This document shows positions 43,083 to 48,555 of a DNA stretch of 64,000 nucleotides, in pieces. The notes under the pieces are model-generated. The model was not told the DNA's origin, searched no databases, and saw nothing but the letters and a program-made list of their open reading frames with translations. Within the stretch, counting starts at the first letter, position 1. Each line of letters starts with the position of its first letter. A program made the translations under genes and the position numbers. Source of the stretch: Psychroflexus planctonicus (GTDB lineage Bacteria > Bacteroidota > Bacteroidia > Flavobacteriales > Flavobacteriaceae); assembly GCF_014640195.1 (NCBI RefSeq), contig NZ_BMGM01000001.1:372001-436000 (forward strand), in the 5' to 3' direction.

Positions 43083-44165
43083 TTACTCACTTATAATTTT
43101 ATGTTGATGCTTAATGGATTCTTCATGAATAGCTTTTAAGAATTTCAAGATAAAGTCTTCGCTTAAATCTTGTTCTTTACCCCGATTTATCATGCTGTCT
43201 AAGATGTTGTTCCAGCGTTTAGATTGTAAAATAGCAACGTTGTTCTTCTTTTTTAGCAAACCTATTTCTTCGGCAATAGCCATTCGTTTTCCTAAGGCGT
43301 CCATCAATTGTTGGTCAATTACGTCTATTTTGGCACGTAGATTTAGTAAAGATTCTTGGTAATCTGATGACTTAGTTGTTTCTTTTCTAATTTTTAAATC
43401 AATCGTCATTTTATCTAAAACAGCTGGAGTTATTTGCTGCTTAGCATCGCTCCAAGCATTGTCTGGATCGTAATGGGTTTCTACCATAATACCATCAAAA
43501 TTTAGATCTAAACCGGTTTGGCAGATATCAAAAATCAAATCTCTTCTTCCTGCAATATGCGATGGGTCTAAGATTAAAGGTAAATCTGGAAATTCATTTT
43601 GCAAATCGATAGCAATTTGCCATTCGGGATTGTTTCGGTATTTGGTTTTTTCGTAGGTAGAAAATCCACGGTGAATAACACCCAAATTTTTGATATTGGC
43701 ATCGTGTAAACGCTCAACCGCTCCTAACCATAAAGGCAAATCTGGATTCACCGGATTCTTTACCAATACAATTTTATCGGTTCCTTGTAAAGCATCTGCA
43801 ATTTCTTGAACAATAAATGGACTTACCGTACTTCTAGCACCAATCCAAAGTACATCTACATCGGCTTTAAGTGCTAAATCTACGTGGTTTTTGTTGGCTA
43901 CTTCAGTGGCGATTTTTAGTCCGGTTTCTTCCTTGGCACGTTGCAGCCATTTTAAACCAATAGCGCCAACACCTTCAAAATTACCTGGTCGAGTTCTGGG
44001 TTTCCAAATGCCAGCTCGCATAATGCTGGTGTCGGTGTCTTTTAATTGATGCGCTATTTTTACCACTTGGTCTTCGGTTTCTGCACTACAGGGTCCAGCG
44101 ATAACCAAAGGATGATTCAATCCTAAATTATTGAACCAGTTTTTCATTTCTTTTCTATTTTCCAT
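43083..44165 (-). CDS. Bifunctional DAHP synthase/chorismate mutase type II
   Basis: A 360-residue fusion. Residues 1-260 form a type I-beta DAHP synthase (VIAGPCSAETEDQ, MRAGIWKPRTRPGNFEG, ILDPSHIAGRRD). Residues about 270-360 are an AroQ-type chorismate mutase (LRAKIDVIDQQLMDALGKRMAIAEEIG). The enzyme catalyses the first committed shikimate step and converts chorismate to prephenate, with the mutase domain acting as a feedback regulator. It is the last gene of the Phe/Tyr operon, 3 bp after tyrA. Confidence 0.96.
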   Translation of the reverse strand: MENRKEMKNWFNNLGLNHPLVIAGPCSAETEDQVVKIAHQLKDTDTSIMRAGIWKPRTRPGNFEGVGAIGLKWLQRAKEETGLKIATEVANKNHVDLALKADVDVLWIGARSTVSPFIVQEIADALQGTDKIVLVKNPVNPDLPLWLGAVERLHDANIKNLGVIHRGFSTYEKTKYRNNPEWQIAIDLQNEFPDLPLILDPSHIAGRRDLIFDICQTGLDLNFDGIMVETHYDPDNAWSDAKQQITPAVLDKMTIDLKIRKETTKSSDYQESLLNLRAKIDVIDQQLMDALGKRMAIAEEIGLLKKKNNVAILQSKRWNNILDSMINRGKEQDLSEDFILKFLKAIHEESIKHQHKIISE

Positions 44166-44168
44166 CTT

Positions 44169-45014
44169 TTATTTTTTTGCTAATATTTCTTTGATGCGGC
44201 TAGTAGAATCCAATAATTGTTCAAGTTCAGAAAATTTGTTGGCTTCCAAAAGTTTTTCAAATTCTTTTAAATGTTGTTGATACTCTTTTAAGCTGGTTAA
44301 GACTTCTGTTTTGTTTTGTTTGAAAATCGCCGTCCATGTTTTTGGATTCGATTTAGCCAGACGAACCGTAGAAGCAAATCCACTACCGGCTAAATTGAAG
44401 ATTTCTCGTTCGTTTTTTTCTAAATCCAACACGGTTTTCCCTAACATAAAAGAACTTACATGCGATAAATGCGAAACATAAGCCAAGTGTTTGTCGTGTT
44501 CTTTTGGCGACATAAAATGAAGCTGCATTTGCATTTCTTGTAAAATATGATAGGCTTTCTTTTTAAGATTTTCGTCTGTTTTTTCAGCTTCACAAACAAT
44601 CATCATGGCCTTGGTAAACAAATTGGGAAAAGCCGCTTTAGGACCAGAAAACTCTGTACCTGCAATGGGATGCAAAGCCAAAAATTGATTCCGCTTAGGA
44701 TGATTGGCCACTGCCGTACAAATATCGTTTTTAGTTGAACCCATATCCATTACCAAAGTATTTTTCTGTACTTGATTTAAAATCTTAGGCAACAATTCAC
44801 TAGCTGCATCAACAGGAATACTCAATACAACTACATCGTAATTTTGCAACTGATTGATATTTCCTTTGTGGTGAATTATTTTTCGGGCTAAAGCAGCTTC
44901 AACGTGAGCTTGATTTTGATCGATTCCCCAAATTGCTGCATCTGGAAAATGCTCTTGTATAGCCAAAGCAAACGAGCCGCCAATTAAGCCTAAACCAATA
45001 CTTGCTACTTTCAT
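44169..45014 (-). CDS. tyrA: Prephenate dehydrogenase
   Basis: A 281-residue NAD-dependent enzyme converting prephenate to 4-hydroxyphenylpyruvate for tyrosine. The Rossmann motif IGLGLIGGSFALAI is at residues 6-19. The LHPIAGTEFSGPKAA block contains the catalytic His, and the C-terminal helical dimerisation domain includes SHLSHVSSFML and FNLAGSGFASTVRLA. No ACT domain is fused, so feedback control probably acts elsewhere. It overlaps the aminotransferase gene by 4 bp. Confidence 0.95.
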   Translation of the reverse strand: MKVASIGLGLIGGSFALAIQEHFPDAAIWGIDQNQAHVEAALARKIIHHKGNINQLQNYDVVVLSIPVDAASELLPKILNQVQKNTLVMDMGSTKNDICTAVANHPKRNQFLALHPIAGTEFSGPKAAFPNLFTKAMMIVCEAEKTDENLKKKAYHILQEMQMQLHFMSPKEHDKHLAYVSHLSHVSSFMLGKTVLDLEKNEREIFNLAGSGFASTVRLAKSNPKTWTAIFKQNKTEVLTSLKEYQQHLKEFEKLLEANKFSELEQLLDSTSRIKEILAKK

Positions 45015-46177
45015 AAAACTTTCTTTTTCAATTTTTGAACACGTTCTAAACTCGTTTTTAAATCATCTATTACTACACAAAGTGAAAAACGCAAATAGGC
45101 TTCTCCTTGGCTTCCAAAAATATGTCCTGGCGTAACAAATAGATTGGCTTCATACAAAAGTTGATCGGCTAAATCTGCTGCTTTTTTCGCTTCTTTTTGT
45201 TTCGCCCAAACAAACAAACCAGTGCTGTTTTTATCGTAATCTAAATTTAATTGGTCTGCAATTTTCCAAACCCATTCTCGGCGTTTCCGATACACTGTAT
45301 TTAATTCTTCAAACCATGTTCTATCTAACTTTAAAACCTTTGAAGCCGTTTGTTGAATGGGAAAAAACATGCCGCTATCCATATTGCTTTTCACTTTTAG
45401 AACAGCACTAATAAAATCGGATTTTCCGGCTAAAAAACCCACCCTAAATCCAGCTAAATTGAAGCTTTTGCTCATTGAATTCAACTCCAAAGCTATTTTT
45501 TTAGCATTGGTTAATTGAAATATTGAGAATGGATTTTCAGTTAAAATCATGCTATACGGATTGTCGTTTACCAACAAAATATCATGCTGAATAGCAAAGT
45601 TGATAATTTCTTGTAATTGCGACCGATCAGCATCTGCGCCCGTTGGCATATTTGGATAATTGACCCACATCATCTTTACCTTAGATAAATCCTTTTTTTG
45701 TAATTCCGCTAAATCGGGATGCCAATTTTTATCACCAGACAATGCATAGTAATTGGGAACACAATTTAATAATTTAGTAACTGCGGCGTAAGTAGGATAA
45801 CCTGGATTGGGAATTAAAACTTCGTCGCCTTCATTTAAAAATGCCATAGAAGTAAGCATAATTCCTTCTTTTGAACCCATTAACGGTAAAATTTCATCTT
45901 CTGCATCAAGTTGAACAGCGTAGTGAATTTTATAAAAATTCGACATGGCATTTCGCAACTCATCAATACCTCGATAAGCCTGATATTGAAATGCTTGCGT
46001 TTCTTGCAATGCCGTTTCAAAATTTTGAAAAACTGCTTTGGGTGGCGATAAATCAGGACTGCCAATTCCCAAATTAATGATGGGTTTTCCAGCTTCTTTT
46101 AAGGCTTTTACTTCCTTCAGTTTTTTACTGAAGTAGTATTCTTCTGTTTGTGCTAAGCGCTTAGAAAATTGAATCAT
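45011..46177 (-). CDS. Class I/II aminotransferase of aromatic amino-acid synthesis
   Basis: A PLP enzyme of 388 residues, fold type I. It has INLGIGSPDLSPP near the N-terminus, NPGYPTYAAV, the Asn/Tyr PLP ring contacts VNDNPYSMI, and the Schiff-base lysine in LNSMSKSFNLAGFRVGFLAG. Lying between pheA and tyrA with 4-bp overlaps on both sides, it most likely transaminates phenylpyruvate and 4-hydroxyphenylpyruvate, or prephenate. The specificity is inferred from context. Confidence 0.92.
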   Translation of the reverse strand: MIQFSKRLAQTEEYYFSKKLKEVKALKEAGKPIINLGIGSPDLSPPKAVFQNFETALQETQAFQYQAYRGIDELRNAMSNFYKIHYAVQLDAEDEILPLMGSKEGIMLTSMAFLNEGDEVLIPNPGYPTYAAVTKLLNCVPNYYALSGDKNWHPDLAELQKKDLSKVKMMWVNYPNMPTGADADRSQLQEIINFAIQHDILLVNDNPYSMILTENPFSIFQLTNAKKIALELNSMSKSFNLAGFRVGFLAGKSDFISAVLKVKSNMDSGMFFPIQQTASKVLKLDRTWFEELNTVYRKRREWVWKIADQLNLDYDKNSTGLFVWAKQKEAKKAADLADQLLYEANLFVTPGHIFGSQGEAYLRFSLCVVIDDLKTSLERVQKLKKKVL

Positions 46178-47007
46178 GTTCTTCCACTTTTATATAAACC
46201 GAGTGTTTGTATTACTTCTGTTGAAGCATTGAGTACTCGAATTAATTTTTTATAATCACGTATGTGTTTGAATCGTACATCTACAATAAATGCATAATTC
46301 CATTGTTTATGGGCAATAGGTATACTTTGAATTTTAGTGAGATTCATACCTAACTCACTCATTGTGGTTAATAGGTTTGCTAAGTTTCCTTGTTCATGTT
46401 TCAATTCAAAATGCAAGGTGGCTTTGTTAGCATCTTGGTTTTCAGTTTGGGTTGGTTTTTTCAATAAAACAAAACGGGTTTCGTTGGTGTTAGTATCTTG
46501 AACATTAGGCTGAATTACTTCTAAGCCAAACAATTCAGCTGTGCCGTTTGGTACCAAAGCAGCGAGATTTTTTTGCTGATTTTTTGCAATTAGTTTAGCA
46601 GGTAAAGCAGTGTCTACATCTTCAATTAATTTAATGTGTGGATGTTTACTGAAAAAATTTCCACATTGATGCAATGCCATTTGATGCGATTTTACTTGGG
46701 TAATATCATTCAAACTTTGGTTTGGCAATGCCACTAAGTTGTGACTAATATTCAAATAAAATTCTTGTGTAATTTGCAGATTCGCATCAATTAGTAAACG
46801 GTAATTGGGTAAAATACTGCCAGCAATCGAATTTTCAATAGCCATTAAAGAAGCCTCAACTTGGTTATTCACCAGAGCATATACAACTTCTCTAAAAGTA
46901 GCGCAAGCTTTAATTTGAGTTTCAGCTTCAAAATAATCACGAATCACTTTATGGTGATTAGATCCTTCTATTCCTTGTATAGCAATTTTTAGATTCTGCA
47001 TGGGCAT
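46174..47007 (-). CDS. pheA: Prephenate dehydratase
   Basis: A 277-residue enzyme converting prephenate to phenylpyruvate. The periplasmic-binding-like catalytic domain has IAIQGIEGSNHHKV, MAIENSIAGSI (the ENS motif) and NETRFVLLKK with the catalytic TRF. A C-terminal ACT domain follows with ELKHEQGNLANLLTTMSELGMNLTKIQSIPI, probably for Phe feedback. It is the first gene of the operon; the intrinsic terminator ends at its start codon. A second in-frame ATG lies two codons later (47001). Confidence 0.95.
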   Translation of the reverse strand: MPMQNLKIAIQGIEGSNHHKVIRDYFEAETQIKACATFREVVYALVNNQVEASLMAIENSIAGSILPNYRLLIDANLQITQEFYLNISHNLVALPNQSLNDITQVKSHQMALHQCGNFFSKHPHIKLIEDVDTALPAKLIAKNQQKNLAALVPNGTAELFGLEVIQPNVQDTNTNETRFVLLKKPTQTENQDANKATLHFELKHEQGNLANLLTTMSELGMNLTKIQSIPIAHKQWNYAFIVDVRFKHIRDYKKLIRVLNASTEVIQTLGLYKSGRT

Positions 47008-47033
47008 AAAAAAAGCCCCAAAAATGGGGCTTT
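47008..47033 (-). terminator. Attenuator terminator immediately before pheA
   Basis: On the minus strand GCCCCA-UUUU-UGGGGC, extended by AAA/UUU, is followed by seven U residues that run directly into the pheA ATG. Terminating here would switch off the whole Phe/Tyr operon. The CCCC arm can alternatively pair with a GGGGG run at 47065-47069 inside the leader peptide gene. Confidence 0.85.
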
Positions 47034-47056
47034 CATAAATTTATGTTCGTATTTAT

Positions 47057-47125
47057 TTAGAACACCCCCGTTTCGCTTAAAAAAGCAAAATAAAAGTAGT
47101 TCCAAAAATAAACTTTATTCAACAT
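47057..47125 (-). CDS. Aromatic-rich leader peptide of the Phe/Tyr operon (pheL-like)
   Basis: A 22-residue frame with an ATG start and TAA stop. Residues 5-15 read VYFWNYFYFAF; in total it has three Tyr, five Phe and one Trp codon. An 8-bp hairpin with a UUUU loop (47071-47090) lies within the codons after the aromatic run. GGGGG (47065-47069) near the stop can form an antiterminator with the CCCC arm of the downstream terminator. This is the classical layout of ribosome-mediated attenuation, sensing charged tRNA-Phe and tRNA-Tyr. The gene is too short for usual annotation. Confidence 0.82.
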   Translation of the reverse strand: MLNKVYFWNYFYFAFLSETGVF

Positions 47126-47181
47126 GGTTGTTTAATATGCTGCTAATGTAATAGAAAGATTTTAATGGCGAAATTTTTTAT

Positions 47182-47217
47182 AAAAAAAAAGCCCCAAAAT
47201 CTTTCGATTTTAGGACT
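47182..47217 (-). terminator. Strong intrinsic terminator upstream of the pheA leader peptide
   Basis: A perfect 12-bp stem (two U-G pairs) with a GAAA tetraloop is followed by nine U residues, read on the minus strand. It lies 164 nt after rimM's stop and about 55 nt beyond a good promoter, so it ends either the rpsP-rimM transcript or a short separate RNA. Confidence 0.85.
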
Positions 47218-47277
47218 TTTCATCCACAACATTGATTAGTTAATCCAAGTAATTATGAAAAACACCCTTTATTAGTC

Positions 47278-48499: not shown

Positions 48500-48555
48500 A
48501 AAAATTAAATTTTGGAGTTCTCGACCCCGGTTATTAATGTTGTTAAAATCGAGCG

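Follow-up and report, generated by a model that had tools for sequence, protein, structure and literature searches.

The pheA operon of Psychroflexus planctonicus is very likely preceded by a ribosome-mediated transcription attenuator that responds to charged tRNA-Phe and tRNA-Tyr. The analysed window is a stretch of 64,000 nucleotides, whose minus strand carries, in this order, rpsP, rimM, a rimM terminator (47186–47221), the leader, pheA encoding prephenate dehydratase as the first gene of the operon (46174–47007), a gene for a pyridoxal-phosphate aminotransferase (45011–46177), tyrA encoding prephenate dehydrogenase (44169–45014) and a gene for a DAHP synthase fused to chorismate mutase (aroG/aroQ, 43083–44165). 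The sequence features of this class of attenuators were found: a leader ORF with codons for the product amino acids, a terminator between this ORF and the first gene, exclusive pairings (1:2 and 3:4 versus 2:3) that are conserved with compensation, and a stop codon placed for the masking of region 2. A complete attenuator of the Phe/Tyr operon had been proposed by a first-pass annotation of the window, and the proposal is supported by conservation, alternative pairings, co-variation and ribosome geometry, from which we infer leader translation, the tRNAs sensed and the switching.

Leader region upstream of pheA

The first-pass annotation had postulated an aromatic-rich leader ORF before pheA on the minus strand, and such an ORF was found at 47057–47125 (MLNKVYFWNYFYFAFLSETGVF, minus strand, 22 codons). 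It is unannotated, visible directly in the sequence and conserved in relatives. A −7 promoter box of the Bacteroidota sigma-A type TAnnTTTG (TACATTAG, 47143–47150, minus strand) precedes it, and transcription is predicted to start about 13 nt upstream of the leader ATG. A weak, possible −33 element (TTTC, 47170–47173, minus strand) can be seen in the sequence 19 nt before the −7 box.

Region 1 (GGAACUACUUUUA, codons 8–12, 47092–47104, minus strand) pairs with region 2 in the predicted fold. Region 2 comprises GGGGGUGUUC and two further bases (47058–47069, minus strand) and would lie under a ribosome at the stop codon. Both pairings of region 2 are backed by the comparison of cognate and swapped partners described below. 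The GGGGG run (47065–47069, minus strand) and a hairpin of 8 bp with a 4-nt loop (UUUUGCUU/AAGCGAAA, 47071–47090, minus strand) are located exactly where they had been placed before. The pause hairpin thus exists as described, but its extent had been missed, as the 8 bp cap a longer 1:2 helix. Because this helix extends to codons 8–12, which pair with GGGGGUGUUC, the 1:2 and 2:3 pairings are mutually exclusive.

Region 3 (AUUUAUGAAAGCCCC, 47026–47040, minus strand) is the antiterminator partner of region 2 and, in part, the 5′ arm of the terminator. The intrinsic terminator 3:4 (47008–47034, minus strand), recognised by sequence, fold and co-variation, has a 10-bp stem at 47011–47034 with the arms GAAAGCCCCA/UGGGGCUUUU, followed by a U run that reaches 47008 and, as had been claimed, abuts the first pheA ATG at 47007. 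Two candidate start codons of pheA are present, at 47007 and 47001 (minus strand), the former directly adjoining the U run.

In the proposed mechanism RNA polymerase would start just 5′ of the leader ORF. Under a shortage of Phe or Tyr the ribosome would stall at UUU, UAU or UAC codons and cover region 1. Region 2 (GGGGGUGUUC) would then pair with region 3 (GAAAGCCCC) ahead of the synthesis of region 4, and transcription would proceed into pheA. When Phe and Tyr are plentiful, the ribosome would arrive at the stop codon and cover region 2, and the 3:4 terminator would form. When the window RNA was folded in stages, 2:3 formed (−11.3 kcal/mol) if a stalled ribosome occupied region 1 and region 4 had yet to be transcribed; in the other cases 3:4 formed. 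Because 3:4 beats 2:3 in the window sequence as soon as region 4 exists, the choice between them must be made kinetically, which is also how the classical systems work. Among 73 non-redundant leaders, a ribosome at the stop codon masks at least half of region 2 in all but one (72/73). The last aromatic codon lies 8–12 nt before region 2 in 37 of these loci; a ribosome stalled exactly at that codon might reach into region 2, unlike one stalled further upstream.

Two further elements were considered in the vicinity. The already known S16-Flavobacteria ribosomal protein leader of Rfam is located upstream of rpsP (48504–48538, minus strand). An upstream aromatic ORF (MKSPKIERFWGFFF...) was examined as a candidate second attenuator and rejected, since it overlaps the rimM terminator.

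Amino acids probably sensed and the trp and his leaders

Phe and Tyr codons occur in each of the 73 leaders, with means of 5.5 and 3.5, respectively. A Trp codon is present in 41 of them (mean 0.6), mostly upstream of the Phe/Tyr core, and the window leader contains one. The first-pass annotation had suggested that the aromatic family is sensed as a whole, i.e. that the leader responds to Phe, Tyr and Trp together by the same mechanism. The Trp codon in the window and in more than half of the leaders as well as the DAHP synthase in the operon would fit such a response. Nevertheless it is unlikely, as 32 of the 73 leaders have no Trp codon, those that occur lie mostly upstream of the core, and the same genome possesses a separate trp attenuator. 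Indeed, trpE is preceded by the Trp leader MKITHNNNWWWNKLRLKS (WWW) and a terminator (locus L137, 1330–1440, G000:C6), and most relatives examined show the same arrangement. Given this separate attenuator and the leaders lacking Trp, the pheA leader is best read as Phe/Tyr-responsive.

The hisG gene of the same genome is likewise preceded by a His leader, MKYKTHTHHHFLTTLSGDE (HTHHH), with a terminator (locus L136, 1350–1472, G000:C2), as it is in most of the examined relatives that have hisG. The ATG is located 5 nt past the −7 box in the Trp leader, whose RNA is probably nearly leaderless, and 7 nt past the box in the His leader. A Flavo-1 RNA lies near both hisG (L136, 250–332) and trpE (L137, 2942–3022) of this genome. 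A search for a branched-chain amino acid leader in this genome (G000, 99.97% complete) gave no ilvD match and only weak leuA matches, all below the cut-off; the strain is a probable branched-chain amino acid auxotroph.

Conservation of the leader peptide and its RNA

Taken by itself, the window leader has a folding energy of −38 kcal/mol, which corresponds to z = −5.1 relative to dinucleotide shuffles, and none of 200 shuffles was as good. The ORF could be regarded as an accident of T-richness, the RNA then serving only as a constitutive terminator or as an attenuator that is bound by a protein and works without leader translation. Among 3000 dinucleotide shuffles of the T-rich 350 nt, 22 (about 0.7%) contained an ORF that starts with ATG and has 8 or more aromatics within 12 codons; because the region is T-rich, the aromatic ORF alone is weak evidence. 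While the single sequence is suggestive of an attenuator, the comparison with relatives decides the matter.

For this comparison 110 pheA loci were used, 30 from whole genomes and 80 from GTDB contigs, with a few genomes occurring in both sets. A leader was scored when pheA was preceded by a short ORF that starts with ATG and in which 12 codons include at least 7 for Phe, Tyr or Trp. Such an ORF was detected at 105 loci and is followed by an intrinsic terminator in each. The five exceptions comprise a locus that is cut by the contig end with the leader still visible, two Kordia loci (one with a displaced terminator behind inserted sequence, the other with nothing recognisable), one locus with upstream repeats and one in which pheA stands immediately behind another gene. 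When the sampling was widened to 40 Bacteroidota loci whose PheA is similar, the ORF was found at 36, once with a GTG start, and the terminator at nearly all; in three of the four loci without the ORF another gene immediately precedes pheA. Several of these leaders belong to genomes with a G+C content of 0.57–0.59, and therefore the ORF is no T-rich artefact.

Sixteen more loci from other Bacteroidia families yielded about 10 with a leader (weak in L265 and L269) and 6 without, and none of 20 loci with divergent PheA has one. The leader was lost or never present at some loci, namely in a family f81 and in the divergent family f2. Upstream of pheA in L270 (family f89) promoter box and terminator are kept and the leader ORF is absent, which is possibly a decayed attenuator. 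The proposal had been made to depend on conservation of ORF and stems in close relatives; both are kept in close and distant relatives, with co-variation. As the switch is common to the sampled Bacteroidota relatives, it appears to be real and ancient.

Selection acts on the peptide as well as on the RNA. In the 73 non-redundant leaders F, Y and W make up 74% of the core residues, whereas the base composition of these cores would predict 36%. Within one family of 17 leaders, changes concentrate at third codon positions (0.27 per site), with 0.08 at first and 0.13 at second positions.

A MAFFT alignment with a fixed 2:3 register suffered from 1-nt shifts (best register 73% paired); since it was too crude, an alignment-free test of cognate versus swapped partners was used. 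Cognate partners reached −12.5 kcal/mol for 2:3, compared to −8.9 ± 0.29 kcal/mol after swapping, and −16.8 compared to −11.7 ± 0.36 kcal/mol for 1:2; the corresponding z values of −12.7 and about −14 are upper estimates because shuffling breaks relatedness. The cognate advantage of both pairings holds with 41 representatives. The matched 2:3 pairs vary by locus, e.g. GGGGUGUUC/GAAAGCCCC, GAAACGAGG/CCUCGUUUU, GGGACUG/AGUCCC, GAGACUUUG/AAAGUCUC, GGAUUGU/ACAAUCC and GCCGGGACUCUU/AAGGGUCCCGG. Double changes were observed in all 7 consensus pairs of the 3:4 helix. RNAalifold on the full alignment returned 3:4 only, which is expected because 1:2 and 2:3 compete.

These data make a chance ORF highly improbable: the ORF is retained at nearly all of the 110 loci and in G+C-rich genomes, variation is biased towards the third codon position, 1:2 and 2:3 co-vary, and the stop codon is positioned over region 2. 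Even less probable is a functional small membrane protein whose gene is merely separated from pheA by the terminator. The hydrophobicity of the peptides and their conserved style would agree with it, but their sequence varies freely provided that aromatics and pairings stay, and the His- and Trp-rich leaders of the same genome match their own operons.

Leader 5′ ends, tandem attenuators and known systems

For 112 of the 143 pheA leader ATGs a TAnnTT[TA]G box lies no more than 45 nt upstream, whereas chance would give 7.7%. The predicted 5′ UTRs of the pheA leaders have a median length of 14 nt, with 36 not exceeding 10 nt. In Psychroflexus the box mostly lies 4–5 nt from the ATG of trp leaders and 6–7 nt from that of his leaders, giving predicted 5′ UTRs of 0–1 nt and 2–3 nt, respectively. 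For F. psychrophilum a median 5′ UTR of 24 nt with 5.5% leaderless transcripts has been described, and in B. thetaiotaomicron 3.7% of the 5′ UTRs are shorter than 10 nt. According to PMC9723704 the −7 box of F. psychrophilum is located at −12 to −5.

At 8 loci pheA is preceded by a series of two Phe/Tyr attenuators, both equipped with a leader, an antiterminator partner and a terminator of their own. These are four loci of Chitinophaga (L068, L079, L086, L100), one of Hymenobacter (L102), those of two genomes from a single related family (L145, L149) and a further one (L162). In 7 of the 8 the cognate region 3 is the preferred partner of each region 2; L145 was scored on the wrong first hairpin. 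The mgtCBR leader of Salmonella (PMC3641672) likewise has tandem leader ORFs, but these sense two different signals, whereas the Chitinophaga/Hymenobacter type consists of two Phe/Tyr attenuators. There is about an even chance that the His, Trp and Phe/Tyr attenuators of Bacteroidota share leader ORFs without a Shine-Dalgarno (SD) site, not more than about 15 nt from the RNA 5′ end, that fast ribosome loading at this end keeps translation coupled to transcription, and that the tandems act as a serial double gate.

Attenuators of this kind need a ribosome close behind RNA polymerase. Their conservation through many Bacteroidota families, together with the His and Trp versions, is sequence-level evidence for transcription-translation coupling in a phylum whose translation initiation does not depend on Shine-Dalgarno sites. 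The leaders also offer ready natural reporters for testing such coupling. Furthermore, an unannotated peptide and an RNA family with no Rfam entry at threshold are added to many genomes.

Attenuators of Bacteroidetes are reportedly mentioned by Vitreschak et al. 2004, and a search of the open-access literature for Bacteroidota attenuators revealed no further relevant paper. The best Rfam match of the window region is RF01859 (Phe_leader) with 32.6 bits (E = 0.0004 to 0.001), which is below the gathering threshold of 55 bits, a value reached by none of 12 sampled loci. The trait of RF01859, a Phe-rich leader upstream of pheA, is present in the window. With enterobacterial pheL/pheA (RF01859) the element shares the aromatic-codon leader ORF, the 1:2/2:3/3:4 alternatives and a terminator just before pheA. 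In contrast to the enterobacterial system, leaders of the window type carry Tyr as invariably as Phe, the element precedes the whole pheA-aminotransferase-tyrA-aroG/aroQ operon, which it would control, and the leader ORF has no recognisable Shine-Dalgarno site, its start codon being near the predicted RNA 5′ end. As in trpL and hisL leaders, the position of the ribosome would choose between antiterminator and terminator.

In the leaderless attenuators of Actinobacteria the leader ORF is translated at or near the RNA 5′ end and has no Shine-Dalgarno site. They belong to another phylum, and the near-leaderless start predicted here derives from promoter spacing only.

Also close to the present element is that upstream of pheA in F. 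psychrophilum, which concerns the same gene in the same bacterial family. Guerin et al. 2021 (PMC9723704) reported structured 5′ elements without Rfam matches upstream of pheA and hisG of this species and their conservation in further genera of the Flavobacteriaceae, along with strong indications of leader-peptide attenuation ahead of amino-acid operons. The passage on the pheA element does not describe the leader peptide sequence, alternative pairings, spread beyond the family or tandems. Over earlier work, our sequence comparison adds the spread across the phylum, the tandem double attenuators and the very short predicted leader 5′ ends without an SD site. Less expected are the tandem arrangement and the near-leaderless starts, while the mechanism itself would be that of the E. 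coli textbook attenuators.
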